From the NCBI RefSeq assembly GCF_023195695.1, contig NZ_JALPQG010000010.1, positions 1 through 64,000 on the forward strand: a stretch of DNA of 64,000 nucleotides, in the 5' to 3' direction. Of the stretch, positions 28,999 through 60,108 are shown piece after piece. The notes below the pieces were generated by a model. It did no database searches, was not told where the DNA came from, and saw nothing but the letters and a program-made list of their open reading frames with translations. The stretch comes from Aliiroseovarius sp. S1339. GTDB lineage: Bacteria > Pseudomonadota > Alphaproteobacteria > Rhodobacterales > Rhodobacteraceae. A program made the translations under genes and the position numbers. Each line of letters opens with the position of its first letter. The first letter of the stretch is position 1.

Positions 28999-29467
28999 TA
29001 TTTCCTCCTCAAAAAAACCTGCGCCTTACTAAAAAATACAACTAACACCTAAATAAAAAATCTCCCAACTTTTTGCGCGAACGCAGCCATTGGCGACAAA
29101 AAATGATCTTGCTCCCTTATACCGAGCATCACATGAGCGGACAATAACATTAGAGAAAACACAAGCTTGGCAGGCCGAAGACTCCCGCCCCGAAGCATCC
29201 CGGTGCTTGATGACCCGTGATCGGCAGAGCGGTCGAACTCGATTCCTTCAACGGCCGCCCACCCTGCGCCCACCAAGACGCCCTGTTGTCCGCGCGGACC
29301 GTAACGCATCGTGGGAAAATAAAGTGCCGCACGGATACAAGCATTGCAAAAACAATGATTTAGCTGCCAACCTCTCTTTTTCGTGAGTTTCGTTGACATA
29401 TATCAAGACGCGCGCCGCCCGTTCCCGCCATCTTCACATTGCCTCACCAAGCAAATGGAGAGTGATC
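28999..29467. other. Intergenic region upstream of nirS
   Basis: This is about 470 bp between the divergent rfbF and nirS genes. The rfbF-proximal 60 bp is AT-rich and probably carries its promoter. The nirS-proximal end holds an FNR-type palindrome, listed separately. No open frame with coding character was found on either strand. Confidence 0.7.
29393..29406. promoter_or_regulatory. FNR/NnrR-type box upstream of nirS
   Basis: TTGACATATATCAA has the TTGAY-N4-RTCAA form of CRP/FNR-family sites used by FNR, Dnr and NnrR regulators. Its 3' edge is 61 bp before the nirS ATG. It probably makes the nir operon respond to low oxygen and nitric oxide. Confidence 0.82.
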
Positions 29468-31144
29468 ATGTCACTTGGAACCACCCAAAAGAATATCCGC
29501 AGCTCGCTAGGGATTGGCTTAGCCATGATGCTCGGCAGCGTCGCTCTGCCAGCAATGGCTGAAGGTCCGACCCTCAGCGAAGAAGCATTTGATGCTTCGA
29601 AGCAACTTTATTTTGAACAATGTGCCGGTTGTCACGGCGTGCTCCGTAAGGGCGCGACAGGCAAAAGCCTTGAACCGGTTGTGAAAACCACTGCCGACGA
29701 TGGCACGGTAACAGAAAGCGGCACGCTTAAACTCGGCCAGGAACGTCTTGAAAAGATTATTACCTGGGGCACCGAAGGCGGCATGAACAACTTCTCGGAC
29801 ATTATGACCGAGGAGCAGATCAAAGACATGGCGACCTATATCCAAATGGATCCGCCCAAGCCGCCAGAAATGTCGCTGGCTCAGATGAAAGAGACCCGCA
29901 AGGTCTATGTCGAAGAAGCCGACTACCCGACCGAGCCGCTGCATGGCCGCAACTGGGAAAACTTCTTCGTCGTCATCGAACGTGACGCTGGTAAAGTTGC
30001 CATCGTTGACGGTGACACCAAAGAGGTGCTGACACACATCCCGACCGGCTATGCCGTGCACGTGATCAAAGCGTCAGAGCACCACAAGATCACCGAACCC
30101 GAACAGCCCGGCCGCTTCTGGTACACGATGGGCCGCGACGGCAAGATGACCAAGATCGACCTGTGGCAAACACCGGACAAGATGTTGGTTTCCGAAGTCA
30201 AAGTTGCCTATGACGCACGTGACGTTGCCGTATCCGGCGATGGTAAATACGTCATCGGTGGCGGCTACTGGCCTCCGCACTTCGTGATCGCGGATGCTGT
30301 GACCATGGAACCGCTGAAGGTCGTATCGACCCGCGGCGTGAACGTGGACGGCGACTATGTGGAAGAAGCCCGTGTGGCAGCCATCTACACCACGCCCAAT
30401 GAAACCAGCTGGCTGGTTGCAGTGAAAGAGCTGGGGCAGATGTGGCAGGTTGACTACTCCGACCTGGAAAACCTGCGGATCGACAAGATCGACTCGGCCA
30501 AGTTCCTGCACGATGGGTTCTTTGATCCGACAGGTCGTTACTTCCAGATCGCGGCGAACGCCTCGAACAAGATGGTTGTTGTCGACACCAAGGAACGCAA
30601 GCTGGAAGCCATGATCGACGTTGCCGCGCTGCCGCACCCCGGTCCCGGCGCCAACTGGATCGACCCGAACTGTGGCCCGGTTGCAGGCACCACCCACCTG
30701 GGTGTTGGCACTGTGACGGTCTGGGGCAACGACCCCGAAGGTCGCCCGGACGAAGCTTGGAAAACCTGCTACGAAGTTGAAACTGACGGCGCTGGCCTGT
30801 TTGTCCGGACCCACCCGAACTCCAAGTATGTTTGGGCGGATCAGACAAAACACCCCGAGCCTGAAATTCAGCAATCTGTTCAGGTCATCTCGAAAGAGAC
30901 AGGTGAAATCGTGAAAACGATCCAGCTGACAGAACAAGAAGGCCACGCCGCTGTGCACTTCGAGTTCAACGCAGACGGCACCGAAGTTTGGGTGTCGAAC
31001 TGGAACCTGGCAGACTCGCTTGAGCCGAACGGTGAGATCGTGATCTACGACGCCGAGACGCTGGAAGAAAAAGCCCGCGTGAAGGGTCTGTTTGCCCCGA
31101 CCGGCAAGTTCAACGTCTTCAACCGGTCGAACCACGTCACCTAA
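29468..31144 (+). CDS. nirS: Cytochrome cd1 nitrite reductase
   Basis: This 558-aa periplasmic enzyme reduces nitrite to nitric oxide. A Sec signal (SLGIGLAMMLGSVALPAMAE) precedes a cytochrome c domain with CAGCH at residues 52-56. It is followed by the eight-bladed d1-heme propeller (DGKYVIGGGYWPPHFVIADA). LPHPGPGANW and GTTHLGVGTV supply the two conserved active-site histidines of cd1 enzymes. The ATG at 29468 is chosen because the signal peptide starts there; an upstream in-frame codon at 29393 lies inside the FNR box. Accessory genes for heme d1 follow on the same strand. The paralogous nirN lies at 39128. Confidence 0.97.
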   Translation: MSLGTTQKNIRSSLGIGLAMMLGSVALPAMAEGPTLSEEAFDASKQLYFEQCAGCHGVLRKGATGKSLEPVVKTTADDGTVTESGTLKLGQERLEKIITWGTEGGMNNFSDIMTEEQIKDMATYIQMDPPKPPEMSLAQMKETRKVYVEEADYPTEPLHGRNWENFFVVIERDAGKVAIVDGDTKEVLTHIPTGYAVHVIKASEHHKITEPEQPGRFWYTMGRDGKMTKIDLWQTPDKMLVSEVKVAYDARDVAVSGDGKYVIGGGYWPPHFVIADAVTMEPLKVVSTRGVNVDGDYVEEARVAAIYTTPNETSWLVAVKELGQMWQVDYSDLENLRIDKIDSAKFLHDGFFDPTGRYFQIAANASNKMVVVDTKERKLEAMIDVAALPHPGPGANWIDPNCGPVAGTTHLGVGTVTVWGNDPEGRPDEAWKTCYEVETDGAGLFVRTHPNSKYVWADQTKHPEPEIQQSVQVISKETGEIVKTIQLTEQEGHAAVHFEFNADGTEVWVSNWNLADSLEPNGEIVIYDAETLEEKARVKGLFAPTGKFNVFNRSNHVT

Positions 31145-31165
31145 GGGTGAGTTGAAAAAGAACCC

Positions 31166-31196
31166 AAGGGGGCGGGCACAGCGCCCGCCCCTTTTC
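31166..31196 (+). terminator. Intrinsic terminator or attenuator after nirS
   Basis: GGGGCGGGC (31169-31177) pairs perfectly with GCCCGCCCC (31183-31191) and is followed by TTTTCT. It lies 22 bp after nirS. It would lower expression of the downstream genes relative to nirS, as is often seen for the highly expressed first gene. Confidence 0.85.
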
Positions 31197-31248
31197 TAAT
31201 GACTGGTCTGAGCACGGACCAAACACGAAGCCAGAACGGAGCCTGGAC

Positions 31249-33078
31249 ATGTCCCAGACCAACGGTAGCGACCCGAAAAAGCCAATCTGGCGCCGGTATT
31301 TCCTGTGGGGAATGCCGCTTGCCGGTATCGCGGGCGTCTTTGTCGCCGGCATTATCTTCTGGGGTGGTTTCAACACCGCCATGGAAGCAACGAACACCAA
31401 AGATTTCTGTATCTCGTGTCACGAGATGGAAGATTTCGTCTATGCAGAATACCAGGGCACCATTCACGACGTGAACCGCTCGGGCGTTGGCGCGGTCTGC
31501 TCAGACTGCCACGTCCCGAAGGACTGGACCCACAAGATGATCCGCAAGATCAAAGCTTCAAGGGAACTTTGGGGCAAAATGGTCGGGACCATCAACACAG
31601 AAGAGAAATTTGAAGCCAAGCGTCTTCATCTGGCGATGAACGAATGGGAACGGATGAAGGCCACTGACAGCCGCGAATGCCGCAACTGTCACCACTTCGA
31701 TTCGATGATGCCCGAATTTCAAGCCCCCCGTGCGCGACAGCAGCACCTGAACGCGATGGAAACCGGACAGACTTGTATCGACTGCCACAAAGGTATTGCG
31801 CACTCGGACGCGCGTAGCCGTGCGGACGAAGATTATCTGGAAGCGCTGGAAGCGCCGAACCCGAAGTTCATTCGCGAGATTCCGCAAGCCTATCTGGACA
31901 GCCTTGCCCGGGTCGAGGCCAAGGAAGCCGAAGAAGAAGCTGCACGCAAAGCCGAATCTGACGCCGCTCAGGCGCGTGTCATGGCCGCGGTTGAGGCCGC
32001 ACGCGCCGATGAACGCGCCAAGGTCGAAGCCGAAATGGCAGGCTCCGAAGCGGATGCGCCCGCCAGTGGTGACACCGGTGACTCTGGTGGCGCAAGCGCC
32101 GGTGGCACGGTCGGTGCCAATGTCGATTGGGATGCTGTTGCAGCAACCGACATGACGCTGTTCTATCCGGGTCAAGCCTCGTTTGAATGGGTGCAGAACG
32201 GCAAAACCCATGGTGGCGCACGGCCTTTGACCAAAGGTGGCGACAAATGTTCGACCTGTCACGCCAAAGAGCTTGAAACCATCGGCAACAAGATCGTCGC
32301 TGGCAAAGACGAAGGTGGGCTGGAGCCGACCCCGATCCCCGGCAAGCGCGGCACGATCGCAGCATCCCTGAAGGCCACATATGACGATGAAAACGTCTAT
32401 TTCCGCCTGCAATGGATGGATGCAGGTCACACCCCTGCCCCGTTTGTTGACGGCGGCAAGATGGACCCGGACAACCAAGTCAAGGTTGGCATGATGATCG
32501 CGGGAACTGGCATCGAAATGGGTGATCAAGTGGGCTGCTGGGCATCTTGCCACGCCGACAACACCTATATGCCTTTCGCACCGGAAGCGGACGCGATCGC
32601 CGCCAGCGGTGATGTGGCCGCCCAACTTCAGGCCGACACCACCATCACCAAGTACCTGTCCGAAAGCCGCACTGACATCGAGATCCGAGGTCGCGGTGAC
32701 AAGGCGCTGGGTGGCTGGGACAAGGTGAAAGATCCTGCTGAAATCGACCAGCTTCTGGCCGATGGCACCTTCCTTGATCTGATGCGCGTCTATGCAGATG
32801 GCACAGCCGAAAACGGCTATCTTCTGCAAAACCGGGTGGTGAATGACGGTGAAATGGCGGGCGAGGCCAACTTGGCTGCCGATGGCACCTGGACGGTCAC
32901 CTTCTCGCGGCCGTTGGTCGGTGGCGAAGGCGATGTCGCGCTGGAAGCAGGCAAGACCTACACGGTCGGCTTCGCGATCCACGATGACTTCACAGCGGCA
33001 CGTTTCCACCATGTAACGCTGGACACCAGCCTTGCGCTGGACAATCCAGACGCCGCGATTAACGTGGTCAAGCAATAA
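31249..33078 (+). CDS. NapC/NirT-type tetraheme cytochrome fused to ethylbenzene-dehydrogenase-like heme domain
   Basis: This is a 609-aa multiheme protein. Residues about 17-40 form one membrane anchor. Four heme motifs, CISCH, CSDCH, CRNCH and CIDCH, lie in residues about 54-185, as in NapC/NirT quinol dehydrogenases. A charged Ala/Glu-rich coiled-coil-like linker (AEEEAARKAESDAAQARVMA) leads to a C-terminal region of about 310 residues. That region has CSTCH, a six-residue CWASCH (CxxxCH spacing), and beta-rich sequence like the DMSO-reductase/ethylbenzene-dehydrogenase gamma domain (SLKATYDDENVYFRLQWMDA). It likely carries electrons from quinol to periplasmic nitrite reductase or its partners. 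The fusion and the odd sixth heme site are unusual. Confidence 0.82.
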   Translation: MSQTNGSDPKKPIWRRYFLWGMPLAGIAGVFVAGIIFWGGFNTAMEATNTKDFCISCHEMEDFVYAEYQGTIHDVNRSGVGAVCSDCHVPKDWTHKMIRKIKASRELWGKMVGTINTEEKFEAKRLHLAMNEWERMKATDSRECRNCHHFDSMMPEFQAPRARQQHLNAMETGQTCIDCHKGIAHSDARSRADEDYLEALEAPNPKFIREIPQAYLDSLARVEAKEAEEEAARKAESDAAQARVMAAVEAARADERAKVEAEMAGSEADAPASGDTGDSGGASAGGTVGANVDWDAVAATDMTLFYPGQASFEWVQNGKTHGGARPLTKGGDKCSTCHAKELETIGNKIVAGKDEGGLEPTPIPGKRGTIAASLKATYDDENVYFRLQWMDAGHTPAPFVDGGKMDPDNQVKVGMMIAGTGIEMGDQVGCWASCHADNTYMPFAPEADAIAASGDVAAQLQADTTITKYLSESRTDIEIRGRGDKALGGWDKVKDPAEIDQLLADGTFLDLMRVYADGTAENGYLLQNRVVNDGEMAGEANLAADGTWTVTFSRPLVGGEGDVALEAGKTYTVGFAIHDDFTAARFHHVTLDTSLALDNPDAAINVVKQ

Positions 33079-33086
33079 CAAACTGC

Positions 33087-33113
33087 GCTGCGGCCGCCCC
33101 AACCGGCCGCAGC
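33087..33113 (+). other. Strong hairpin between multiheme and cupredoxin genes
   Basis: GCTGCGGCCG (33087-33096) and CGGCCGCAGC (33104-33113) form a perfect 10-bp stem with a 7-base loop. No U-tract follows, so it is more likely a transcript-processing or stabilising element than a terminator. It lies between the two coding regions in the short gap. Confidence 0.6.
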
Positions 33114-33145
33114 GTCATTGATCCGAGGTTCAGAAAGGAAAGCTG

Positions 33146-33626: not shown

Positions 33627-33640
33627 TTGCTTTATATCAA
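33627..33640. promoter_or_regulatory. FNR/NnrR-type box upstream of nirE
   Basis: TTGCTTTATATCAA keeps the outer TTG and CAA of the FNR family at the standard spacing of eight and one full half-site, ATCAA. It lies 150 bp before nirE, where a second nir transcription unit for heme d1 synthesis may begin. Confidence 0.6.
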
Positions 33641-41428: not shown

Positions 41429-41926
41429 TCAGCCCCGTACCCAACTCAATATGGCATCGGCGTCGGCGGGCAGGGTTTCGGCCATACCGCCGACAAATTC
41501 CGCAAACTCCTTGCGGCTGCCCGCGCTTAACCCCACTAGAACGGGGATTTCCTTTTCAAGGGCGGCGGCGATGGCGGCGCGAAAGCCGCGTCCTTCCGCC
41601 TCTTCCGGGCCAAACTTGTTCAAGATGAAGGCATCCGCGGCCAGGCTGCTGGCCTGATCCACGGCAGCCACGGCTTGGGCAATCGCTTCGGGGTTCAGGC
41701 GGCAACCATCTGACCCTTCGCCCAGCGATTGGGTGATGCGGATGGTGCGATTGTCCGCCAGAACACGCACGTCCATATCGCAATGGTGCGAGCTTTCGGG
41801 CATGTCCTGCAAAACCTTGACGATGCCGTTCAGCACGAAGCCTTCGGCTTCAAGAGTGGCGGCGGCTTCGGAAATCAGGCGGTCGGTTTCGCCCCGCCCA
41901 TCTGCGGTGATGCAAGCGATCCTCAT
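41429..41926 (-). CDS. DUF2478 family protein (NTPase-like), copy 1
   Basis: This is a 165-aa cytoplasmic protein of the DUF2478 family, which has nucleoside-triphosphatase-like features. Its N-terminus, RIACITADGRGETDRLIS, resembles a degenerate P-loop. HHCDMDVRVLADNRTIRI and ADAFILNKFGPEEAEGRGFR are shared with the second copy at 59512. Function is not established; family members occur near molybdenum or anaerobic genes. The ATG overlaps the ubiV stop (ATGA at 41923-41926), placing it in the ubiT-ubiU-ubiV operon. That makes a role in anaerobic cofactor or quinone metabolism plausible. Confidence 0.8.
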   Translation of the reverse strand: MRIACITADGRGETDRLISEAAATLEAEGFVLNGIVKVLQDMPESSHHCDMDVRVLADNRTIRITQSLGEGSDGCRLNPEAIAQAVAAVDQASSLAADAFILNKFGPEEAEGRGFRAAIAAALEKEIPVLVGLSAGSRKEFAEFVGGMAETLPADADAILSWVRG

Positions 41927-42834
41927 GCAGGCTCTCCTTCTTTGGCACGCGACCAGTCCGCACCACGCGCGCCGGTCAAAAATCCATCCGACAGACGCAT
42001 GCCGCCCGACAGGGTTTCCAATTCAGCCGACAATGCAGCGGCGTCCAGCGTTCCGTCAATCCGGTCGCGCCACGCCTGACAAACGCGCGCAAAATCGCCG
42101 GTTTGGGGTGATAGACGCAGGGCGGTCACGCCCGCTTTTTCCAGCGCTTCCAACTGGTTGGCCATGCTGGCGCAACTGTCCGACAGGGTTTGAACGCCGT
42201 TCATTGCCAAAAACGGCTGATCTTCCAACGTGCGCACAGACAGCCCATCGGGGTCATCTTCGCAGGCAAACTGGCAATTGTCCTTGGTCCGCTTGTGCAG
42301 CCGCGCGTGATAACACCGGCCCGAGATCGCGAGCGGCAAACGCCCGTGCCCCCAGACCTCAATCGCCACACCGCGCGCCGCACCCTCAGCGGCCAGTGCC
42401 GTGACGGACTCCAACGGCAATTCCGGCGGCAGACAAATGCGCGTCGCCCCACGATCGGCGAGCCACCCCAGCGTGCCTTCGTTATAGACGTTGACCAAAG
42501 GCCCCACCGAAAACGGCACGTCCTTGGGCAGATAGGCCAGCGTGGTCAGGTCGTTCACCTCGACCTCGACACCCGCATCGGCCAGCTCGGCAGTCAGTTT
42601 GCGTTCGCGTTTCAACGTCACAAGGGCGAGCGACGTCACGGCGACCTCTTTCCCCGCCTCCAGCAGCGTTTCAATCGCGCCCGGAATACGGTCTTGATAA
42701 AACGGCAGGCGTTTCGAGCACACAAGCTCGCCCAGCACGACACGCTCAACCGGGGCGGTGGCCATCTGGTCGTAAAAATCGCTCCACGCGTCTGCTTTCC
42801 AGAAGAATTGGTTGGGTCCGACGGTCAGCTGCAT
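41923..42834 (-). CDS. ubiV: Oxygen-independent ubiquinone hydroxylation protein UbiV (U32 family)
   Basis: This 303-aa U32-family protein has the UbiV start QLTVGPNQFFWKADAWSDFY. Cysteines in ERVVLGELVCSKRLPFY and in CYHARLHKRTKDNCQFAC provide the [4Fe-4S] ligands expected of UbiV. With UbiU it forms a complex that hydroxylates the quinone ring without O2, using prephenate as the oxygen donor. It lies two bases after ubiU and overlaps the DUF2478 gene by four bases. Presence inside a denitrification island fits the need to make ubiquinone when O2-dependent hydroxylases cannot work. Confidence 0.92.
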   Translation of the reverse strand: MQLTVGPNQFFWKADAWSDFYDQMATAPVERVVLGELVCSKRLPFYQDRIPGAIETLLEAGKEVAVTSLALVTLKRERKLTAELADAGVEVEVNDLTTLAYLPKDVPFSVGPLVNVYNEGTLGWLADRGATRICLPPELPLESVTALAAEGAARGVAIEVWGHGRLPLAISGRCYHARLHKRTKDNCQFACEDDPDGLSVRTLEDQPFLAMNGVQTLSDSCASMANQLEALEKAGVTALRLSPQTGDFARVCQAWRDRIDGTLDAAALSAELETLSGGMRLSDGFLTGARGADWSRAKEGEPA

Positions 42835-42836
42835 GG

Positions 42837-43814
42837 CTATCTCCAGATCTTCTTATAGGCACCGGCAGTTGCGGCCTGCCCTTCGGTCAGTTGCGCCAAC
42901 ATCCCCTCGGGCATCGGACGCCCGGCGGCTTGGGCTTCAACGGCGGCACGGAAGTTGCGCACCACCTGCGCGACATAGGACCGCGAGCGTTGCCGCCCCT
43001 CAATCTTCAGCGCCGTCACACCCGCCTTGGCCAGTTGCGGGATCAGTTTCTCAGCATTCAAACTGACCGGATCTTCGAACAGATGCCCGGACGCGTCGCC
43101 TGCGCTAAAGCACCCCTTGCACAGCGTGGGGTAAGGTGCGGGTTCATCCGCGCCGACCTTGTGGATGGTGAACCCGCCCAGCTTGGCCGACAGCGCGCCG
43201 TGATCGTCGTGGTATTCCACATGGCTTGCGGGCGAGCACACGCCGTTCATGTTGGGCGACAACCCGGTGGCATAGGATGACAGCGAACAGCGCCCTTCCG
43301 CCATCACGCACAGACCGCCGAACACAAACACCTCGGTCTCGACCGCGGTTTCGGCGTTGATCGCGGCGATTTCCGGCACTGACAGAACGCGTGGCAGCAC
43401 CACGCGCTTCACGCCAAATTCGCTGGCATAGAAGTTCAGCATATCCGCATTGGCGGCGGCGGCTTGCACCGACAGGTGCCGACGCAGGCCGGGATGGTGT
43501 TTCGCGGCGTAGGCCAGCAGGCCGACATCCGCCAAAATCACCGCATCGACGCCGCATTTTTCCGCGTCCGCCACAGCGCGGTGCCAGATCGCCTCGGCCC
43601 CCGCGCGGGGGTATGTGTTGATCGCCACCAGCACTTGCGCGCCGTGGTCATGGGCAAATTTCACGCCCTCGCGCATTTCGTCCCGGTCGAAGTTCAGCCC
43701 GGGAAAGTTGCGCGCGTTGGTTTCATCGGCAAACCCGCAATAGACGGTGTGCGCCCCCGCTTTCACAGCCGCGCGCAGGGATGCGGGCGTGCCGGCGGGG
43801 CAAACGATTTCCAT
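42837..43814 (-). CDS. ubiU: Oxygen-independent ubiquinone hydroxylation protein UbiU (U32 family)
   Basis: This is a 325-aa U32-family protein beginning MEIVCPAGTPASLRAAVKAG, matching known UbiU N-termini. Cysteines in CVMAEGRCSLSSYATGLSPN and in YPTLCKGCFSAGDASGHLFE form the likely [4Fe-4S] site. It is the partner of UbiV. The ATG at 43814 overlaps the ubiT stop (TAATG). A GTG six bases earlier has AGGAGG upstream and would add two residues, but the homologous start favours ATG. Gene order ubiT-ubiU-ubiV on the minus strand matches the operon of other proteobacteria. Confidence 0.92.
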   Translation of the reverse strand: MEIVCPAGTPASLRAAVKAGAHTVYCGFADETNARNFPGLNFDRDEMREGVKFAHDHGAQVLVAINTYPRAGAEAIWHRAVADAEKCGVDAVILADVGLLAYAAKHHPGLRRHLSVQAAAANADMLNFYASEFGVKRVVLPRVLSVPEIAAINAETAVETEVFVFGGLCVMAEGRCSLSSYATGLSPNMNGVCSPASHVEYHDDHGALSAKLGGFTIHKVGADEPAPYPTLCKGCFSAGDASGHLFEDPVSLNAEKLIPQLAKAGVTALKIEGRQRSRSYVAQVVRNFRAAVEAQAAGRPMPEGMLAQLTEGQAATAGAYKKIWR

Positions 43815-44356
43815 TACCACAGGGGGTCCTCCTCGTGGCGCGACAGGGCCACGCCGGTTTTGGTTTCAGCAAGCCCAATCAGGCGCTTGACCTGAGGGGC
43901 GAAGGGACCGGACATCGCCCCGGCCTCGGCGGCGAGGTCAAGTTCGGCGTCGTCAATCGCGTTGCGCAGAGCCAGAACGGCGGCGGTGTCGCCTTCGATC
44001 ACCAGATCGCGCGAGAAAAACAGCGCATCGCCATCGTAAGCCCCGTGCACCATGCCCAGAAGCCCGGACAGAGGCCCGGCGATCCGCGCATCCCCCTGCA
44101 TGGGTTTGCGCGACAGCCGCAGGCGGGGATGACCCGCGCGCGGCTCCAGAAGCAGTGTCACCGGCAGGTCGGTCGGGTCCAGCACGAAGCGCGTATTGCT
44201 ATAGTCGCCCAACCGCTTGAACATTGACGGATGCCGCGTCGCCATCCTCCTCGCAAACGCGCCGAGCGCCAACGAGATCGGGGTCAGGGGCAGTCCGCGC
44301 AGGGCAAAGGCGGGAAGGCGTGGAAAAACAGGCAGTTGGACGGCATGGTCCTGCAT
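43814..44356 (-). CDS. ubiT: SCP2-domain protein UbiT
   Basis: This is a 180-aa protein with a sterol-carrier SCP2 domain, as seen in UbiT, which binds ubiquinone intermediates. ALRGLPLTPISLALGAFARR is the N-terminal helix, PTDLPVTLLLEPRAGHPRLR the beta core, and GDARIAGPLSGLLGMVHGAY the lipid-binding loop, in line with the family. The ATG at 44356 is chosen because AGAGG lies seven bases upstream; a TTG at 44380 is less likely. An FNR-type site lies 72 bp upstream. It heads a ubiT-ubiU-ubiV-DUF2478 operon for O2-independent ubiquinone synthesis. Confidence 0.9.
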   Translation of the reverse strand: MQDHAVQLPVFPRLPAFALRGLPLTPISLALGAFARRMATRHPSMFKRLGDYSNTRFVLDPTDLPVTLLLEPRAGHPRLRLSRKPMQGDARIAGPLSGLLGMVHGAYDGDALFFSRDLVIEGDTAAVLALRNAIDDAELDLAAEAGAMSGPFAPQVKRLIGLAETKTGVALSRHEEDPLW

Positions 44357-44427
44357 GGCGCACCTCTTCAATGCGGGCAAACGGGTGTCTACACCGGACT
44401 TTCATATCAATCTGGGCGCGCGGTAAC

Positions 44428-44441
44428 TTGACCTTGGTCAA
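44428..44441. promoter_or_regulatory. FNR/NnrR-type box between divergent ubiT and ubiD
   Basis: TTGACCTTGGTCAA is a perfect palindrome with arms TTGAC/GTCAA and four central bases. It lies 72 bp from the ubiT start and 43 bp from the ubiD start and could control both. The arms match the other island sites. Confidence 0.8.
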
Positions 44442-44484: not shown

Positions 44485-45999
44485 ATGGAGCCGACCATCC
44501 GCACCCTGCCCCCCTTCCCCACGCTGCGCGCTTATCTCGACTGGGCAGCTTCGCGCGGCGATCTGACCGCCGTGCCTGACCCCGTGTCGGTGCGCCATCA
44601 GATGACCGCCGTGCACCGCGCGGTGTTGGAACGTGGCGGGCCGGTTCTGCGTTTTGACAAACCCGTGCTGGACGCGGGCCGCGTGTCCGACATTCCGGTC
44701 GTGGTGAACCTGTTTGGAACGCCCGAACGCGTCGCCGCCGGGCTGGGCGTCGCACCCGACAAGCTGGATGAGCTTGGCGCATTTCTGGCCGCTTTGCGCG
44801 CGCCCACGCCGCCCGACGGAATGCGCGATGCGCTGTCGCGCTGGCCCATGCTGAAAGCCGCCCTTGCCACGCGACCCAAGATCATGCGCCGCGCGCCCGT
44901 GCAGGCCGAGGTTCACACGGACCCGGACCTGTCAACGCTGCCGATCCAGACCCATTGGCCGGGCGACGCGGGGCCGCTGATCACATGGCCCGTGGTGCTG
45001 ACCCGCCCGCATGGCAGCGACGCAGGCGACGTGAATCGTTACAACGCAGGCGTTTACCGCGCACAGGTGATTGACCGCAACCGCATCATCATGCGTTGGC
45101 TGGCCCATCGTGGCGGCGCGGCGCATCATCGGACGTGGGCCGCGCAAGGTGAACCGATGCCCGTGGCAATCGCCTTGGGGGCCGACCCGGCCACGCTTTT
45201 GTCCGCCGCCCTCCCCCTGCCTGAAACAGTTTCGGAACTGGGCTTCGCGGGCGTCTTTTCCGGCGCGCGTCCCCGCCTTGTGCCCGCCAAGACTGTCCCC
45301 CTGATGGTGCCAGCGGATGCCGAGATGGTGATCGAGGGCTGGGTACACTCGTCCGAGACCGCGCCCGAAGGCCCGTTTGGCGATCACACCGGATACTACA
45401 ATCAGGTCGATCCCTTCCCCGTGATGCAGGTCAGCGCCCTGACCCACCGCAAAGACCCGATTTACCTGTCCACCTATACCGGTCGCCCGCCAGATGAACC
45501 CGCGATCATTGGCGAGGTTTTCAACCGCCTCGCCCTGCCCCTGATCCGCGCGCAGATCCCCGAGATCCGCGACATGTGGTTGCCCCCCGCCGCCGCGTCC
45601 TATCGCATGGCGGTGATCAGCATCGGCAAACGCTATCCGGGGCAGGCGCGCCGCGTGATGATGGCGCTGTGGGGGATGTTGCCGCAGTTCAGCTATACCA
45701 AGATGATCGTCGTGGTGGATGATGACATCGACCCGCGCAATTGGGATGACATCGCATGGGTGCTCGCCACGCGGATGGACCCGTCGCGCGACGTGATGAT
45801 ATTGGAGAAGACGCCGATGGATTACCTTGATTTCGCGTCACCCGAACCTGGTTTGGCCGGGAAAATCGGCATCGACGCCACCAACAAGATCGGCGCGGAA
45901 ACCAGTCGTGAATGGGGCGAGGTCATGCACACCAACCCGAAAGACGCAGCCTTCGCCGCCGACCTTCTGGCGCGCCATTTGCCGGAGTTGCCCCAATGA
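44485..45999 (+). CDS. ubiD: UbiD-family prFMN-dependent decarboxylase
   Basis: This 504-aa protein matches the UbiD family (PF01977) over its full length. The prFMN-binding/active-site region GWVHSSETAPEGPFGDHTGY contains the conserved acidic residues, and VNRYNAGVYRAQVIDRNRII is the central family block. The C-terminal segment FAADLLARHLPEL is also usual. It decarboxylates an aromatic acid, most likely 3-octaprenyl-4-hydroxybenzoate, in ubiquinone synthesis, because ubiX follows directly and ubiTUV is divergent. The start codon is separated from an FNR site by 43 bp, so anaerobic expression is likely. Confidence 0.9.
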   Translation: MEPTIRTLPPFPTLRAYLDWAASRGDLTAVPDPVSVRHQMTAVHRAVLERGGPVLRFDKPVLDAGRVSDIPVVVNLFGTPERVAAGLGVAPDKLDELGAFLAALRAPTPPDGMRDALSRWPMLKAALATRPKIMRRAPVQAEVHTDPDLSTLPIQTHWPGDAGPLITWPVVLTRPHGSDAGDVNRYNAGVYRAQVIDRNRIIMRWLAHRGGAAHHRTWAAQGEPMPVAIALGADPATLLSAALPLPETVSELGFAGVFSGARPRLVPAKTVPLMVPADAEMVIEGWVHSSETAPEGPFGDHTGYYNQVDPFPVMQVSALTHRKDPIYLSTYTGRPPDEPAIIGEVFNRLALPLIRAQIPEIRDMWLPPAAASYRMAVISIGKRYPGQARRVMMALWGMLPQFSYTKMIVVVDDDIDPRNWDDIAWVLATRMDPSRDVMILEKTPMDYLDFASPEPGLAGKIGIDATNKIGAETSREWGEVMHTNPKDAAFAADLLARHLPELPQ

Positions 46000-46560: not shown

Positions 46561-47784
46561 TTACTGCGCCGCCATCGGCACGCGCGCAATCTCGCACTGG
46601 CTCCACAATTCTTCCAACGCGCCCAGCAGGTGCGCGATGTCGGCGTCTGAATGAACAGGCGACGGCGTGATGCGCAACCGCTCGGTCCCCTTGGGGACAG
46701 TGGGATAGTTGATCGGCTGGATATAGACGCCAAAATCGCGCATCAGGGTATCCGAGATGAACTTGCACTTCACCGGATCGCCCACCATCACCGGAATGAT
46801 GTGGGAGGGGTTGTCGATATGCGGAATGCCCATCGCATCCAAGCCTTCGCGCACGCGGGCGACACGCTCTTTTTGACAGTCACGCTCCACGTTCGACCGT
46901 TTCAGATGCTGCACCGAGGCGCGCGCTCCTGCCGCCACAGCAGGCGGCAGCGCGGTGGTGAAGATGAACCCGCTGGAAAAGCTGCGCACGAAATCGCAAA
47001 GCTCGGCAGACGCGGCAATATAGCCGCCCATCACGCCAAAGGCTTTGCCCAACGTGCCTTCGATCACCGTCAGGCGATCCATCAGACCTTCGCGTTCGGC
47101 GATACCTGCGCCGCGCGGGCCGTATAGGCCAACCGCGTGCACCTCGTCCAGATAGGTCATGGCGTTGTATTTGTCAGCCAAATCGCAGATTTCCTTGATC
47201 GGCGCGATGTCGCCATCCATCGAATAGACGCTTTCAAAGGCGATCAGCTTCGGCGCATCGGGGTCGGCGGCGGCCAATTTGGCCTCAAGATCTTCCAGAT
47301 CATTGTGCTTCCAGATCACCCGCGCGGCTTTCGAATGGCGGATGCCTTCGATCATCGAGGCGTGGTTCAGCGCATCGGAAAACACAATGCAGCCGGGAAT
47401 TTGTGACGCCAGTGTGCCAAGCGCCGCCCAGTTCGAGACGTAACCGGACGTGAACAGAAGCGCGCCTTCTTTACCGTGCAGATCGGCCAATTCAGCTTCA
47501 AGCAACACGTGGTCATGGGTGGTGCCGGAGATATTGCGCGTGCCGCCAGCGCCCGCGCCCACCGTATCAATCGCGTGGTGCATGGCGTCCAGCACATCAG
47601 GATGTTGCCCCATGCCCAGATAGTCGTTCGAGCACCAGATCGTCACATCGCCGGTGCCACCTTCGCCGGTATGACGCGCTTGCGGAAAGGAACCGCGCTT
47701 GCGTTGCAGGTCAGCAAACACACGGTAGTTGCCATCATCCTTCAGCGCATCAAGGCGGGTTTTGAAATAGTCTTGATAATTCAT
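46561..47784 (-). CDS. hemA: 5-aminolevulinate synthase (C4 pathway)
   Basis: This 407-aa PLP enzyme condenses glycine with succinyl-CoA to 5-aminolevulinate, the first step of heme synthesis in alphaproteobacteria. [20 protein letters not shown] carries the PLP-binding Lys, [20 protein letters not shown] the conserved Asp/His, and [20 protein letters not shown] the substrate loop. The ATG at 47784 is chosen because GGAGGG is seven bases upstream and the homologous N-terminus [20 protein letters not shown] begins there. An FNR-like site 62 bp upstream suggests that heme supply rises with anaerobic cytochrome synthesis. Confidence 0.95.
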
Positions 47785-47845: not shown

Positions 47846-47859
47846 ATGATGTTTGTCAA
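47846..47859. promoter_or_regulatory. FNR-like box upstream of hemA
   Basis: ATGATGTTTGTCAA has one exact half-site, GTCAA, and one degenerate half-site, ATGAT (read TTGAC-N4-ATCAT on the minus strand). It lies 62 bp before the hemA ATG, the same distance as the stronger sites of the island. hemA is a known target of FnrL in related bacteria. Confidence 0.55.
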
Positions 47860-47927
47860 GTGGACGGGAAAAACCGGGCCAACACGACGGCCCTTAGGGA
47901 CTGCGCGCCAAAAATAGGAGAGTAAGA

Positions 47928-48013
47928 CCAACCGCCCGCCCCCAGATTGGGGACACCCGGCCTCGGAACGCATGAAATGCGTCTGGGCGGTTGGCCTATG
48001 GGTTCGAAAACCC
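47928..48013 (-). ncRNA. Candidate structured RNA or hemA leader
   Basis: The segment folds on paper into a long outer stem of 10 bp (47928-47937 with 47985-47994) enclosing two hairpins, including ACGCAT-GAA-ATGCGT (47968-47982). A separate stem-loop of five G-C-rich pairs lies at 48000-48013, reading GGGTT-TTCG-AACCC on the minus strand with a UUCG loop. No open frame of coding character covers it. Strand is a guess based on the hemA direction. I could not match it to a known RNA family, including the glycine riboswitch. Confidence 0.35.
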
Positions 48014-48172
48014 GAACGTGATCGGTTTCGCCGCCGGCCTCACCCAAGAACAGAGGCGACATTGATCACAGAGGCCGTATTCGAATTACAAAACAAGGAT
48101 GCGTGCGCAACCTCGGCGGGTGGGCCTTAGGCGAAATGTGGCACATCGCGGATCGGCTGCACTTAACCAACG

Positions 48173-49393
48173 TCAAGACGGTGCGGTTTTCATATGCGGC
48201 GGCAACGGGGGTGGCGGCGGCGGTGCAGGGCGTGCGGTGCGCGCTTGGGTCAGCGCGGGGATCATCCCGACAAGGAACAGCGCAAACGCCCCGATCCACG
48301 CGGCCCCGGCGATCAGCACCAGCGCGTCATACCAGCCATAGAGCAGATCCGAGGCCAGCCAACGGGTCAGCGCCGACAGGATCATCAGCCCATAGCCGAC
48401 CGCAACCGGGCGCGGCACAATCGGCGCGCGGCCCGTGTGGCCAAGCGTGGCGCGGCTCATCACCGCCAAAGTCATGCCGCCAACGCCGCCCAGACCCAGA
48501 ACATGCAGCGCGCCGACCTCGTCCCCAATGCCCCAACCAGCCAAAGTGAACAGCGCCAGCCCGACGACCAACAGCCCTTGGGCGGCAAACAGCGACCACA
48601 AAAGCGGATCGCGCAACGACCAATGCGGGCGCCAAAGGCTGATCCGCAACCCGTGCACAATCGCCAGAACCAGCGCAATGATGGGGGTGAATGGGGGCAA
48701 AAGCACGCTCCACGGTAGCGCGATGGAAGTCAGAACCGCGGCGCGATCCAGCCGGGGCGTGACAGGCGGCAAAGCCTCGGGCGGATGGCCCGCACGGTTC
48801 ATCGCGTTGCGGATAAAGCCGGGTGTCACGCGCCCGCCCAGAACGACGATCAACCCACACAAGGCCAAAAGCCCGATGCGAAGACCTACGCGCGCGCCGT
48901 CCGGCCACAGGTCCAGCCAATCCAGATGCACCGCCAGGTTTGCAGCCAGTAACGTGGCAAGGAAAATCAGAAAGATCGCGTGTTGCGCCTTTGGGCGTTT
49001 GACGAGCTGCACCCCAATGCGCCCTGTCAGCACCGCCAGGAATGACAGATCGACTGCGGCCACCAGCACAGGCGGAAGCGCTGCGGATTGCCAAAGCGCA
49101 ACACGGCCCGCCAGCCACAAGGCGGCCAGCACCCCGATGACCAAACCGCGCCCGCTGGCGACAGCCGTCAGAAAGAACCCGGCAACCGCCGCGCCCGCAT
49201 AGCCAAAAACCATTTCATGGGCGTGCCACAGGTGCGGGGCCATCGACAGGCCCGACAGATCAGACGCGGTGCCCGTGGCTTGCCCGCCCAGCCAGACCTC
49301 CCATATCAAGCCGGAAAGAATGGCCCAGATTGCAGCGCCCAGAAAAAAAGCGCGAAACCCTTCGCTGAGGACGCGTTTCACCACATTTGCCAT
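48173..49393 (-). CDS. nnrS: NnrS family protein
   Basis: This is a 406-aa heme/copper-containing membrane protein with about 12 hydrophobic segments and the family's conserved start HLWHAHEMVFGYAGAAVAGF, in which several His residues are likely metal ligands. VTPGFIRNAMNRAGHPPEAL is another family block. NnrS protects against NO-related stress and is common in nor operons. The ATG at 49393 is chosen because VKRVLSEGFRAFFLGAAIWA is the family start. An FNR-like site lies 57 bp upstream. Confidence 0.9.
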   Translation of the reverse strand: MANVVKRVLSEGFRAFFLGAAIWAILSGLIWEVWLGGQATGTASDLSGLSMAPHLWHAHEMVFGYAGAAVAGFFLTAVASGRGLVIGVLAALWLAGRVALWQSAALPPVLVAAVDLSFLAVLTGRIGVQLVKRPKAQHAIFLIFLATLLAANLAVHLDWLDLWPDGARVGLRIGLLALCGLIVVLGGRVTPGFIRNAMNRAGHPPEALPPVTPRLDRAAVLTSIALPWSVLLPPFTPIIALVLAIVHGLRISLWRPHWSLRDPLLWSLFAAQGLLVVGLALFTLAGWGIGDEVGALHVLGLGGVGGMTLAVMSRATLGHTGRAPIVPRPVAVGYGLMILSALTRWLASDLLYGWYDALVLIAGAAWIGAFALFLVGMIPALTQARTARPAPPPPPPLPPHMKTAPS

Positions 49394-49449: not shown

Positions 49450-49463
49450 ATGACCAAAGTCAA
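49450..49463. promoter_or_regulatory. FNR/NnrR-type box upstream of nnrS
   Basis: On the minus strand this reads TTGACTTTGGTCAT, arms TTGAC and GTCAT, one mismatch from the palindrome. It lies 57 bp before the nnrS ATG. Confidence 0.7.
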
Positions 49464-49509: not shown

Positions 49510-49758
49510 TCAAGCGTCGTCTTCGGCCTGCGTGATCATGCCGTGGGCCCATTTGCCCAAGACCCACGCAAACGGCACGCCAAGGATCACGCCACCCGCG
49601 ATCGCCTCGAACGGGGTAAGCGCACGCAGGCCGATGGCTTGCAGCATCAGGAACAGGAAAAACAGGTTCACCGCCGCAGCCCCCGCCGCAAACGGATAGA
49701 TCACAAGCGCCACCGCCCAGACGGGCCAGCGGCCTGAACTGTCGCCGTGATCGGTCAT
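49510..49758 (-). CDS. Small two-helix membrane protein of nor region
   Basis: This is an 82-aa protein with two hydrophobic segments (VWAVALVIYPFAAGAAAVNL and IAGGVILGVPFAWVLGKWA). No family is recognised. Its ATG overlaps the stop of the upstream small gene by four bases (ATGA at 49755-49758), so both are translated together. It lies between the nor operon and nnrS and is expected to be induced with them. Its role is unknown. Confidence 0.7.
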   Translation of the reverse strand: MTDHGDSSGRWPVWAVALVIYPFAAGAAAVNLFFLFLMLQAIGLRALTPFEAIAGGVILGVPFAWVLGKWAHGMITQAEDDA

Positions 49759-49958
49759 TTTTTGCGAAACACGGATTTCTGCACGGCAACCAGCGCAAGG
49801 ATCAGCGCAATCGCAGCCCCCAACAGCCACAGGGTCGCGCCGCCAACAGCGTGCGAATGTCCGTCGATCACCGCTTCACGCAGCGGGGTCTTGTCGTGGT
49901 GGGCAAAGGCGGGTGAGGCCACGATGCCAGCCAATATGGCCAGTGGAAGAGCTTTCAT
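49755..49958 (-). CDS. Small His-containing exported/anchored protein of nor region
   Basis: This 67-aa protein starts with a signal-like segment ALPLAILAGIVASPAFAHHD, followed by KTPLREAVIDGHSHAVGGAT and a C-terminal membrane helix (LWLLGAAIALILALVAVQ). The His-His at the predicted cleavage site and the HSH motif could bind metal, but no function is established. The ATG at 49958 has GGAG upstream; an in-frame ATG at 49991 lies further upstream. It is the first gene of a short unit with its own near-perfect FNR site. Confidence 0.7.
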   Translation of the reverse strand: MKALPLAILAGIVASPAFAHHDKTPLREAVIDGHSHAVGGATLWLLGAAIALILALVAVQKSVFRKK

Positions 49959-50014: not shown

Positions 50015-50028
50015 TTGATCATCATCAA
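50015..50028. promoter_or_regulatory. Perfect FNR box upstream of the small nor-region genes
   Basis: TTGATCATCATCAA matches the consensus TTGAT-N4-ATCAA exactly. It lies between norF and the 67-aa gene, 57 bp before the latter's start, so it opens a separate anaerobic transcription unit. Confidence 0.85.
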
Positions 50029-55051: not shown

Positions 55052-55073
55052 TTCACGTCTCCTCTTCCCGGCC

Positions 55074-55584: not shown

Positions 55585-55598
55585 TTGACTATTGTTAA
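55585..55598. promoter_or_regulatory. FNR/NnrR-like box upstream of norC
   Basis: TTGACTATTGTTAA (minus strand TTAACAATAGTCAA) keeps one full half-site and a degenerate second half. It lies 59 bp from the norC ATG, matching the spacing of the other island sites. Confidence 0.65.
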
Positions 55599-57452: not shown

Positions 57453-57534
57453 TTTCGCCGCAGGAGGTGAAATTGATACCACCCCCAACCCCGATTGCGG
57501 CTAGTCTGGCGAAAACCGCCTGAAAGGACTGATC

Positions 57535-58728
57535 ATGGCCGATCCATTTGCCACAGCCGCCCTGCGCCATATCGTGGTCACGCCCGCCAAAGGCGATGCC
57601 GCCACGCGCGTTCTGTCGCCCACCGACTTCGCGCAAGCTTGGGACGAGATCACGCAGTGGGACGGCTATGCCCCCACCCCGCTCGTGCCCCTGTCAGGTT
57701 TGGCGCGTCAGATCGGCGTTGCCCGCATTGACTATAAGCACGAAGGCCCGCGCTTTGGGCTGGGCAGTTTCAAGGCGCTTGGCGGAGCCTATGCGGCGAT
57801 GCGCGTGTTGCAGCGCGAGCTGGGCAAACGATTGGGTCATGCGGTGACGCTTGAGGACATCCGTGAGGGCAACCATACGCAAGCGTGTGGTGCGATCACC
57901 CTCAGCTCTGCCACCGACGGCAACCATGGCCGCTCGTTGGCGTGGGGCTGCCAACGCGTCGGCGCTCCCTGCCGCATCTATATCCACGCCGAGGTCAGCG
58001 AAGGCCGCGCCCAAGCGATGCGCGATCTGGGCGCGGACGTTGTGCGGATCGACGGGGATTACGACGACTCGGTCAATCTTGCGAAAACCGAGGCCGAAGA
58101 AAACGGCTGGTTCGTCGTGTCCGACACCTCGTGGGATGGCTATACCGAGCCACCCCGCGACGTGATGGCTGGATACGGCGTGATGACCCGCGAAGCCTGC
58201 GAGGCGCTGGACCAAGCGCCAACACATGTATTCCTGCAAGGGGGCGTTGGCGGCCTGGCGGCCTCGGTCGCCGCGTATCTGCGCCAGCATTGGGGCGACG
58301 CCGCCCTGCGCGTCGTGATCGTCGAACCCGAACTGGCCGCCTGCCTTTATGAAAGCGCGCGCAAAGGCACCCCCACATCGGTTCAGATTGACGCAGAAAC
58401 CATCATGGCGGGCCTGTCCTGCGGCGAGCCGTCGGAAATGGCGTGGGACATCCTGCGAGAAGAGGCCTCCGATTTCGTCACCATGCCCGACAGCATCGTC
58501 GCCCCGACCGTGCGCCTTTTGGCAAACGCGGAAAGTGGCGATGCAAAGGTCGAGGCAGGCGAAAGCGCAGTGGCGGGACTGGCAACCCTGATCGCCGCGA
58601 TGCGCCAGCCGGACTTGGCAAAAGCGCTGGGGCTGGATGCGCAATCGCGCGTGTTGCTGATCGGGTCCGAAGGCGTCACCGACCCCGCGATCTTCAAGGC
58701 AATCATGGCCGGGGCGGATCATGTCTGA
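57535..58728 (+). CDS. dpaL: Diaminopropionate ammonia-lyase
   Basis: This 397-aa PLP enzyme breaks 2,3-diaminopropionate to pyruvate and ammonia. FGLGSFKALGGAYAAMRVLQ contains the PLP-Lys, TLSSATDGNHGRSLAWGCQR the phosphate-side Asn/Gly loop and substrate Asp, and FLQGGVGGLAASVAAYLRQH the glycine-rich PLP phosphate site. Length and motifs match YgeX/DpaL. AAAGGA lies seven bases upstream of the ATG. The next gene, an Asp/Glu-racemase-family protein, starts 37 bp later, so both may serve unusual amino acid breakdown. Confidence 0.9.
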   Translation: MADPFATAALRHIVVTPAKGDAATRVLSPTDFAQAWDEITQWDGYAPTPLVPLSGLARQIGVARIDYKHEGPRFGLGSFKALGGAYAAMRVLQRELGKRLGHAVTLEDIREGNHTQACGAITLSSATDGNHGRSLAWGCQRVGAPCRIYIHAEVSEGRAQAMRDLGADVVRIDGDYDDSVNLAKTEAEENGWFVVSDTSWDGYTEPPRDVMAGYGVMTREACEALDQAPTHVFLQGGVGGLAASVAAYLRQHWGDAALRVVIVEPELAACLYESARKGTPTSVQIDAETIMAGLSCGEPSEMAWDILREEASDFVTMPDSIVAPTVRLLANAESGDAKVEAGESAVAGLATLIAAMRQPDLAKALGLDAQSRVLLIGSEGVTDPAIFKAIMAGADHV

Positions 58729-58765
58729 TCCCACCCGCGCCCTGCAAGACCTGCCGGAGATTTAG

Positions 58766-59515
58766 ATGAAACTCGACTTCGAAACGGACCAAGGCATCGG
58801 AACCCGCGCCAATCTGGGCGTGATCGTATTGGAAAACGACGAAACGCTGGAAAACGAGTTTCGTCGGATATTGGATATCGACGGCGTCGCGCTGTATCAC
58901 TCGCGCATCCCGATGGGGCCGGAGATCCGCCCCGACACCCTGCCCCAAATGCTGGATGACCTGCCCGCTGCCACGCGCCTGTTGCCGCCCGCACTGAACT
59001 TTGATGTGATCGGATATGGCTGCACCTCGGCCACGTCGGTGATCGGGCCAGAGAATGTCGCGGCCGCCATCCAAACCGTCTGTCCCAGCGCGCGCGTCAC
59101 CGACCCGCTGACCGCGATCATTGCCGCCGGGCGGCACCTTGGAGTCACGCGTCTGGGCTTCCTGTCGCCCTATGTCGCCGCCGTGTCACAAACCATGCGC
59201 GACCGTCTGAGCGAGGCCGGGTTTCAGATCACCAGTTTCGGATCGTTTGAAGAAAGCAATGATCAGATCGTCGGGCGGATCACGCCTGACTCTATCCTGA
59301 CCGCCGCCCAGCAGATCGCCGACGCCGCCCCTTGCGATGCCATCGTGATTTCCTGCACCGCGCTCAGATGTCTGGATATTATTCCTAAGATCGAAGCGCA
59401 AACCGGCAAGCCCGTCCTTGCCAGCAATCCGGCGCTGGCGTGGCATATGCTGAGGCTCGCAGGCATCAATGGCGCGCGCGAGGGGATCGGGCGGCTGTTT
59501 GACGTGGTGGCTTAG
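58766..59515 (+). CDS. Asp/Glu racemase-family protein (maleate isomerase/arylmalonate decarboxylase-like)
   Basis: This is a 249-aa protein with the two-Cys pattern of the Asp/Glu racemase superfamily. The first is in FDVIGYGCTSATSVIGPENV and the second in CDAIVISCTALRCLDIIPKI. The N-terminal RANLGVIVLENDETLENEFR and GRHLGVTRLGFLSPYVAAVS fit the maleate isomerase/arylmalonate decarboxylase branch more than true racemases. It follows dpaL closely on the same strand, so it probably acts on a related amino or dicarboxylic acid. The substrate is unknown. Confidence 0.8.
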   Translation: MKLDFETDQGIGTRANLGVIVLENDETLENEFRRILDIDGVALYHSRIPMGPEIRPDTLPQMLDDLPAATRLLPPALNFDVIGYGCTSATSVIGPENVAAAIQTVCPSARVTDPLTAIIAAGRHLGVTRLGFLSPYVAAVSQTMRDRLSEAGFQITSFGSFEESNDQIVGRITPDSILTAAQQIADAAPCDAIVISCTALRCLDIIPKIEAQTGKPVLASNPALAWHMLRLAGINGAREGIGRLFDVVA

Positions 59516-60033
59516 CCCGCGTCCGCTTCAACAGGCAGTGTTTCGGTCAGCCATTTTTCAATCGCGGCAGGATCGGCTGGCAGTTCTTCGGCCACATCGC
59601 CGCAGAATTCCAAAAACGCGTCGTGGTTCAGGTTGTTCACACCCGCCAAAACCGGAATGTCGCGCGCCAGAGCCTCGGCGATCACATTGCGAAACCCGCG
59701 CCCCTCGGCCTCGTGCTTGCCAAACTTGTTGATCAGCAGCAGGTCGGCACCGTTCACCAGCGCAGCCTCGGTATCGGCGACCGCAGTTTCAAGCGCGTCC
59801 ATGTCCAGCCGACACCCGCGCGACGCTTTCCCCAGATCTTGCGAAATACGGATGATCTTGCCCGCGGGCAGCACCTTCACATCCATGTCGCATTTGTGCC
59901 CATCACTGCGGTTCGTGTCGATTTGCAAGGTGCCAACGATGCGCACACCGCGCGCCTCAAACCGCTCCGCAATCTCGGCCAGCAAAAGGTTCGTTTCACC
60001 GCGCCCCGGCGCAATCGTATAGCCAAGTTTCAT
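59512..60033 (-). CDS. DUF2478 family protein (NTPase-like), copy 2
   Basis: This 173-aa paralogue of the gene at 41429 shares the N-terminal APGRGETNLLLAEIAERF region, GHKCDMDVKVLPAGKIIRIS and LLLINKFGKHEAEGRGFRNV. The H-x-CDMD motif and the NKFG segment, like the base-recognition motif of NTPases, are conserved in both copies. Function is unknown. It is monocistronic and has a perfect palindromic FNR-type site 62 bp upstream, so it belongs to the same anaerobic regulon although it lies 4.5 kb beyond the nor operon. It is convergent with the racemase-family gene, overlapping by four bases. Confidence 0.82.
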   Translation of the reverse strand: MKLGYTIAPGRGETNLLLAEIAERFEARGVRIVGTLQIDTNRSDGHKCDMDVKVLPAGKIIRISQDLGKASRGCRLDMDALETAVADTEAALVNGADLLLINKFGKHEAEGRGFRNVIAEALARDIPVLAGVNNLNHDAFLEFCGDVAEELPADPAAIEKWLTETLPVEADAG

Positions 60034-60094
60034 CCCGTCTGCCTTTCAGGTCGCATTTCCAGACACGCGATATACCACGCGTCCGGGCACGCCA

Positions 60095-60108
60095 TTGACC
60101 TGAGTCAA
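60095..60108. promoter_or_regulatory. FNR/NnrR-type box upstream of the second DUF2478 gene
   Basis: TTGACCTGAGTCAA has perfect palindromic arms TTGAC/GTCAA. It lies 62 bp upstream of the start at 60033 and directly next to the stop of bioY, which is read in the same direction. Confidence 0.8.

Follow-up and report, generated by a model that had tools for sequence, protein, structure and literature searches.

Comparison with described systems

In Dinoroseobacter shibae a network of the regulators FnrL, DnrD, DnrE and DnrF has been described, with boxes at nirS (TTAAC-N4-GTCAA), norC (TTGAC-N4-GTTAA) and hemA3. The nirS and hemA3 boxes lie 39.5–41.5 bp from the transcription starts, and FnrL and DnrD act via a single bidirectional site between nirS and nosR2, as shown by fusions and mutation (PMC5398030). 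In Rhodobacter sphaeroides chromatin immunoprecipitation (ChIP) located FnrL at the hemA promoter and at one site separating RSP0466-4 from RSP0467-8, both marked as induced (PMC2908626), and in Escherichia coli Fnr activates the oxygen-independent ubiquinone genes ubiUV and ubiT (PMC10470549). Here we analyze a stretch of 64,000 nucleotides from Aliiroseovarius sp. S1339 (RefSeq assembly GCF_023195695.1, contig NZ_JALPQG010000010.1, positions 1 to 64,000; referred to as the window), a member of the Rhodobacteraceae. An earlier note on this DNA had described eight FNR/NnrR-type palindromes as one anaerobic regulon. We consider it highly probable from the sequence that these are class II Fnr-type boxes that would be read by FnrL and a Dnr-type regulator, and that a ninth box would drive an RNA kept from a lost nor operon.

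Most targets of the regulon have published precedent in D. shibae and in the FnrL ChIP data of R. sphaeroides; the new element is the ninth box with the candidate structured RNA behind it. D. shibae has the same kind of box at nirS, norC and hemA as the window, but its nirS box is shared with nosR2, unlike that of the window; DUF2478, U32 and nnrS do not appear in the main text of that paper, and no free-standing RNA was seen in the available part of it (PMC5398030). The site between RSP0466-4 (lipid carrier, U32; ubiT/ubiU-like) and RSP0467-8 (ubiD) of R. sphaeroides resembles the ubi site of the window. The available text does not call these lipid carrier and U32 genes ubiquinone genes, and the computation in that study assigned them to DNR, though R. 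sphaeroides is without a DNR orthologue (PMC2908626). E. coli uses two separate Fnr sites where the window has one shared bidirectional box (PMC10470549).

Fnr-type boxes in the window

All eight palindromes are present at the coordinates previously given. The common form TTGAY-N4-RTCAA attributed to them holds exactly for four (29393, 44428, 50015 and 60095), while the other four carry one mismatch each: 33627 (TTGCTTTATATCAA), 47846 (ATGATGTTTGTCAA), 49450 (ATGACCAAAGTCAA) and 55585 (TTGACTATTGTTAA). The four exact matches compare with 0.21 expected, and none of 100 shuffles reached four; across the genome there are 35 exact occurrences, while the reversed pattern has 3. Palindromes of this kind, as expected of an Fnr/Dnr regulon, are thus present beyond chance. 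When one mismatch is allowed, the window contains 12 matches against 6.2 expected (2 of 100 shuffles reach 12). Since this is about twice the expectation, mismatch counting alone does not carry the weaker sites.

We scored the window with a matrix built from the nirS, norC, ccoN and ubi sites of relatives, excluding the window's own sites. Nine positions score at least 12 bits, 1.39 being expected from a background of 100 simulated windows with a maximum of 5 such positions. The matrix scan against background, which the earlier note had set as its own test, accordingly came out in favor of the sites. The nine positions comprise all eight palindromes and one that had been overlooked, 48163–48176.

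Six of the sites had been placed 57–62 bp from a start codon. We computed gaps of 61 bp for nirS and hemA, 56 bp for nnrS and the gene of a 67-amino-acid protein (sm67), 58 bp for norC (start 55526) and 61 bp for the second DUF2478 copy, in agreement within one base. For the site at 44428 the distance is 43 bp to ubiD and 71 bp to the ubiT start used (44356); the site at 33627 is 150 bp from nirE.

Conservation of the boxes in relatives

The nirS box (29393..29406, plus strand, exact match; nirS start 29468) is found exactly and at 61 bp in all six genus loci. Among family loci it is present with at most one mismatch within 300 bp in 15 of the 16 with an aligned start (20 were fetched, four without an aligned start). 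By the same thresholds all 24 genomes examined carry the norC box (55585..55598, minus strand, one mismatch). Upstream of nirE (start 33791) the window's box (33627..33640, plus strand, one mismatch) has a decayed left arm, TTGCT; all seven genus loci show a box with at most one mismatch at the aligned position, reading TTAAC in six, and 12 of 27 loci overall have one within 300 bp.

The bidirectional box at 44428..44441 (exact) separates ubiT-ubiU-ubiV-DUF2478 on the minus strand from ubiD-ubiX on the plus strand. Of 71 named divergent loci, 62 have it exactly and 67 with at most one mismatch, a tolerance at which the pattern read backwards gave no match there; 74 loci were named in all, three being left out for want of a ubiD match. 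The box of hemA, encoding 5-aminolevulinate synthase (47846..47859, minus strand, one mismatch), has the same off-consensus TCAT end at 61–62 bp in 10 of 10 genomes. The nnrS box (49450..49463, minus strand, one mismatch) is present with the identical mismatch in 7 of 8 genus genomes; outside the genus the best matches are shared or absent. The exact box of the gene pair encoding the 67- and 82-amino-acid proteins (50015..50028, minus strand) recurs exactly at 55–56 bp from sm67 in all eight genus genomes.

Orthologous promoters thus carry seven of the eight sites and also the ninth, the exception being the site upstream of the second DUF2478 copy (60095..60108, minus strand, exact). Upstream of six relatives' copy-2 genes no exact counterpart was found; two of the six have a one-mismatch form, TTGAC-N4-CTCAA. 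The orthologue in genome G014, one of the six and likewise adjoining bioY, has no site upstream. Membership of 60095 in the regulon, as claimed before, is therefore not borne out by conservation.

As negative controls we scanned the upstream regions of internal operon genes, allowing one mismatch. These were clean except for nirH (14/26), nirF (1/26) and sm82, the gene of the 82-amino-acid protein (3/11), where the match is the sm67 box. The pattern read backwards, again with one mismatch, matched once each at nirS and nirC and twice at norE, and at no other promoter. The nirH signal arises because a palindrome lies inside nirG of other genera.

This near-perfect Fnr/Dnr palindrome within the nirG coding sequence is an observation of its own. 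Of 26 nirG copies 13 have it, always at one codon position some 183 bp ahead of nirH, in loci L097–L116 (for example L099, L104 and L111); the genus of the window lacks it. The encoded residues vary (LTKVN, MTLVN, VTLVN), with codons AAA, TTG or TTA. Counted by copies, no other intragenic core match recurs as often in the genes scanned (ubiD 4/5, nirF 4/27). The palindrome may be an internal site or a coincidence of the coding sequence.

Spacing to the -10 element

In relatives, T1, A2 and T6 of the -10 hexamer were scored (maximum 3) at each distance from the box end. The mean over eight promoter classes is 1.73 at offset 22 and at most 0.97 at all other offsets (the norC class counts two genomes twice). 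Offset 22 ranks first in six of the eight classes (nirS, norC, hemA, ubiD, ubiT and sm67); for nnrS offset 21 comes first, and for nirE offset 22 is second behind 27. At the 67 named ubi loci that have a box, the score peaks at 22 on both sides (1.81 and 1.87, with backgrounds of 0.58 and 0.71), which argues that one box serves two divergent promoters. Control flanks, 76 in number, score 0.76. The window's own best -10 picks lie at offsets 20–24, with TATGAT at 22 for sm67. Class II geometry, with the box centered near -41.5 and the -10 hexamer 22 nucleotides downstream, is therefore seen in the relatives; its intended positive control, the ccoN-proximal box, is taken up in the Discussion.

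Candidate regulators and arm composition

Eight proteins of the genome clearly match the Crp/Fnr helix-turn-helix family; a ninth does so only jointly with its neighbors in frame. One of the eight (L005) is FnrL, with 440 bits against an NCBIfam equivalog cut-off of 300, and its neighbors are presumably hemN, uspA and ccoNOQP. A second, the C12 protein (98883–99605), is 44–67% identical to regulators in 8 of 20 nir-locus windows, several of them beside nor or hemA. Its best match in the PDB is a cyclic nucleotide-binding protein, followed by the DNR protein. Matches to it of at least 41% identity were found in 37 of 149 family genomes, namely in 31 of 33 with nirS and 6 of 116 without. The genome thus encodes candidates for both cognate regulators, FnrL by its score and a Dnr-like protein by neighborhood and DNR match. 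The motif E-x-x-S-R is present in the recognition helix of five of the eight regulators, including both of these, and this fits the report that FNR, FixK and DNR recognize virtually identical sites, those of NnrR being different (PMC2908626, available part).

The name NnrR in the original description implies an NnrR-type nitric oxide (NO) regulon as in R. sphaeroides and Bradyrhizobium, with the NnrR protein reading the sites. The genes nir, nor and nnrS are indeed the classic NnrR set (PMC1274295). Against this, the published NnrR consensus (ctTTGcgnnnncgCAAag; TTTGCG-N4-CGCAAA) shows no enrichment, with 2 matches when two mismatches are tolerated where 6.8 would be expected, and the boxes are of the Fnr type, which the recognition residues of FnrL and the C12 protein fit. 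We regard such a regulon as extremely unlikely, and NnrR as reader of the boxes was rejected on its motif.

Could FnrL read every box by itself, with Dnr being incidental? R. sphaeroides FnrL binds both TTGAC and TTGAT sites, including those at hemA and at ubi-like promoters (PMC2908626), and ubi boxes occur in genomes without a Dnr match above 29% identity, being exact in five of six such loci. This would leave the co-occurrence of the Dnr-like gene with nirS unaccounted for, as well as the different composition of nirS/norC and ccoN boxes, and D. shibae nirS and norC are dependent on both FnrL and DnrD (PMC5398030). We consider FnrL alone quite improbable and favor joint reading by FnrL and the Dnr-type regulator.

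The earlier note had further proposed that TTGAT and TTGAC arms separate promoters by regulator. In the aggregate there is a difference: C is found on both arms of 37 of 45 nirS/norC sites (at most one mismatch, two duplicate loci dropped), whereas among the 43 exact ccoN sites, drawn from 29 of 30 loci, 6 are of this type. The orthologous promoters counted here are not independent of one another. At single promoters the arms vary between species, with CC 45, CT 15 and TT 2 among 62 ubi sites, CT 6 and TT 2 among 8 sm67 sites, and CC 15 and CT 6 among 21 nirS sites. Since they change at one and the same orthologous promoter, the arms do not label the acting regulator. Two-class matrices also sort the window's sites uncleanly, the nirS box scoring as ccoN-like, and ubi sites with C arms were found in genomes without a close Dnr. 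Many FnrL ChIP sites of R. sphaeroides likewise have TTGAC arms (PMC2908626, available part). That the arms encode which regulator acts at each promoter thus appears very unlikely; we rejected them as a promoter label and kept the aggregate difference.

A ninth box and a candidate structured RNA

The ninth box (48163..48176, minus strand, TTGACGTTGGTTAA) overlaps the stop codon of nnrS. Its matrix score of 16.9 is the sixth best in the window, and all 10 genus loci, from 8 genomes, have it unchanged. Behind it and before the hemA box lies a stretch, 47909..48130 on the minus strand, that is a candidate structured RNA, with a modelled core at 47926–48078 and a transcript that would start near 48128, judging from the position of the box. 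In nine sequences its pairwise identity is 0.88, compared with 0.76 for the nnrS end, 0.79 for the hemA start and 0.30 for the following spacer. The stretch has no conserved reading frame, and a small conserved peptide inside it was rejected since the frames differ between copies. No Rfam covariance model matched 47909–48130 at E values up to 10.

The fold of the window's copy has a z-score of -2.65; those of four other pieces of 150 nucleotides range from -1.3 to -4.4. In an alignment of 11 sequences, 10 of them distinct, 94.4% of the cells in 54 pairs hold standard pairings. Covariation is seen in 13 pairs changed on both sides, compared with 3.6 in shuffled alignments and at most 6 when the structure is slid, with the structure drawn from the same 10 distinct rows, which represent few independent lineages. 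A terminator scan gave one match behind the RNA (47893–47876); shuffles average 0.9.

The RNA might act as a cis leader or attenuator of hemA instead of being free. In the window, the genus loci and genomes G372 and G084 it sits immediately upstream of hemA; yet hemA has its own conserved box and -10 element downstream of the RNA, and in 18 other genomes a similar element sits in nor and not before hemA. We hold a leader function to be unlikely and continue with a separate transcript from the ninth box.

Such an RNA is unreported in the titles and abstracts of the literature matches listed, and nor genes had no match in the text of one small-RNA paper. A small RNA affecting denitrification in the same family is sRNA-29 of Paracoccus denitrificans, which we take to be DenR. 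The likeness is by description only: in the available text the level of sRNA-29 peaks aerobically and its effect runs via a GntR regulator, unlike what we propose for the RNA of the window, and norD and hemA are absent from that text (PMC6686037).

Probable origin of the RNA at the norQ-norD junction

A search with the RNA model matched 22 of 394 family genomes, once each, and as stricter filters missed seven junction loci this is a lower bound. Four matches are free-standing (the window's own, G007, G372 and G084) and 18 align as the norQ-norD junction. Gene mapping placed 12 loci at this junction, five of them among the 18, as well as G248 and G274; the remaining assignments rest on alignment A5, which covers 25 genera with a mean column identity of 84%. 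As judged from these alignments, at least 25 other genera in the family carry a homologue of the RNA at their norQ-norD junction. With default filters no copy was found at norQ-norD in the nor operons read from the genus loci and G084, where the free-standing copies score 116–179 bits. A class-wide search with stricter filters found just the window's own copy in 289 genomes.

Across the 25 genera the junction fold is paired in 97.3% of cells, and 8 pairs changed on both sides account for 27 cells against 5.0 when shuffled; the junction lies in coding sequence, which constrains it as well. In a synonymous-site test the highest 20-codon window falls on the first norD codons but also on the first norQ codons. 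Because norQ shares the peak, an RNA constraint does not follow from that test alone.

The form of the ninth box, TTGAC-N4-GTTAA, is that of the norC box in 13 of 17 loci outside the genus, one being identical, and nnrS and norC are nearest mapped neighbors on one strand in 12 of 20. From the norC-form box and the norQ-norD homology we infer that a former nor operon once stood between nnrS and hemA and that its loss spared the promoter and the RNA element. The ninth box with the RNA looks like an old norC promoter plus an element retained after this loss.

The region could then be nothing but a norQ-norD remnant with no present function. It resembles coding sequence of other genera and its frames are broken in some copies. 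A mere remnant would hardly be expected to be more conserved than the nnrS and hemA ends and the spacer, to covary in its base pairs and to keep the box invariant in eight genomes. We find this explanation rather doubtful and prefer an element that would still be in use. Tentatively, the norQ-norD element may have survived in Aliiroseovarius and two further genera as a small RNA driven by FnrL and Dnr and acting in trans, either as mimic or decoy of a factor at the norQ-norD junction or on hemA expression; we see this as a possibility and not as the probable outcome.

Genes of the window and their surroundings

The cytochrome cd1 nitrite reductase gene nirS (29468..31144, plus strand) is named from the earlier note and its context, having no NCBIfam equivalog match; its orthologues in six other genera of the family are 84–87% identical. 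The oxygen-independent ubiquinone pathway is recognizable by equivalogs of all three proteins on the minus strand: ubiV (41923..42834; NF047965, 356 bits), ubiU (42837..43820; NF047963, 503 bits) and ubiT (43814..44380 as the longest open frame, with ATG 44356 used; NF047962, 72 bits). A ubiD-family decarboxylase gene (44485..45999; TIGR00148, 462 bits) follows on the plus strand, and hemA (46561..47784; TIGR01821, 671 bits) on the minus strand.

The first DUF2478 copy (41429..41926, minus strand; PF10649, 156 bits) is the last gene of the ubiTUV run, and the second lies at 59512..60033 (minus strand; PF10649, 176 bits). The genome has three DUF2478 genes, at 41429–41926, 59512–60033 and C12:162842–163315. 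In 38 of the 74 named loci ubiU has a DUF2478 gene no more than about 4 kb away, and relatives of copy 2 adjoin napC-like genes in five genus loci.

Of the two small membrane proteins, both encoded on the minus strand, the 67-amino-acid one (49755..49958) has no Pfam match, searched as the 78-amino-acid reading of its frame, and no PHROG match; the 82-amino-acid one (49510..49758) has no match in Pfam or PHROG. Relatives of the latter (37–44% identity) are located near nirN/cbiX in other denitrifying genera, suggesting that this protein is nir-associated more widely.

Further Fnr-type boxes in the genome, at L118 (C19:1-19900), C12:342362 and C18:1622, precede a cytochrome c peroxidase-like gene, hemN/fnrL, uspA/ccoN, a ccoG-like gene and two napF-like genes, all but fnrL being named presumptively from the N-terminal sequence. 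In Aliiroseovarius sp. M344 the nir-DUF2478-hemA-nnrS-nor island with the RNA is found on a 179-kb plasmid typed as mobilizable (NZ_CP081154.1, L308).

Discussion

We propose that FnrL, responding to oxygen, and a Dnr-type regulator, responding to NO, both encoded elsewhere in the genome, would bind the class II boxes. These would switch on NirS, heme d1 synthesis, hemA, NnrS, Nor and the pair of 67- and 82-amino-acid proteins, with one box switching on ubiTUV-DUF2478 and ubiDX in opposite directions. The ninth box, just behind nnrS, would drive a structured RNA of about 200–220 nucleotides ending before the separate hemA promoter, and both would have outlasted a former nor operon located between nnrS and hemA.

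Several observations weigh against this proposal. The ccoN-proximal box shows no peak at offset 22 (0.83/3; the peak is at 33). In the window the -10 picks for nirE (offset 24) and for ubiD and the second DUF2478 copy (20) deviate from 22, and the -10 element of the ninth box is weak (CACATT). The C12 protein stays below all NCBIfam cut-offs, its best model being FtrB with 118 bits against a cut-off of 211; its label as Dnr therefore rests on neighborhood, co-occurrence and the DNR structure match. The motif E-x-x-S-R also occurs in two FixK-like regulators and in L008, which could read the boxes too. Finally, the RNA could partly be a conserved remnant, with free-standing copies in three genera only.

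In summary, the original idea of one regulon over nitrite and NO reduction, heme, heme d1, quinone synthesis and small membrane proteins is supported by the conserved sites, by the promoter geometry and by the occurrence of FnrL and a Dnr-like regulator in the genome. One promoter class would thereby tie anaerobic ubiquinone synthesis, heme supply, heme d1 and NO reduction together in a marine denitrifier, and the regulon gives a clear list of testable sites. The RNA may be regarded as a natural experiment, in which a piece of a messenger was seemingly kept by selection after its operon had been lost. If this is true, control of NO reductase at the RNA level would become directly testable.

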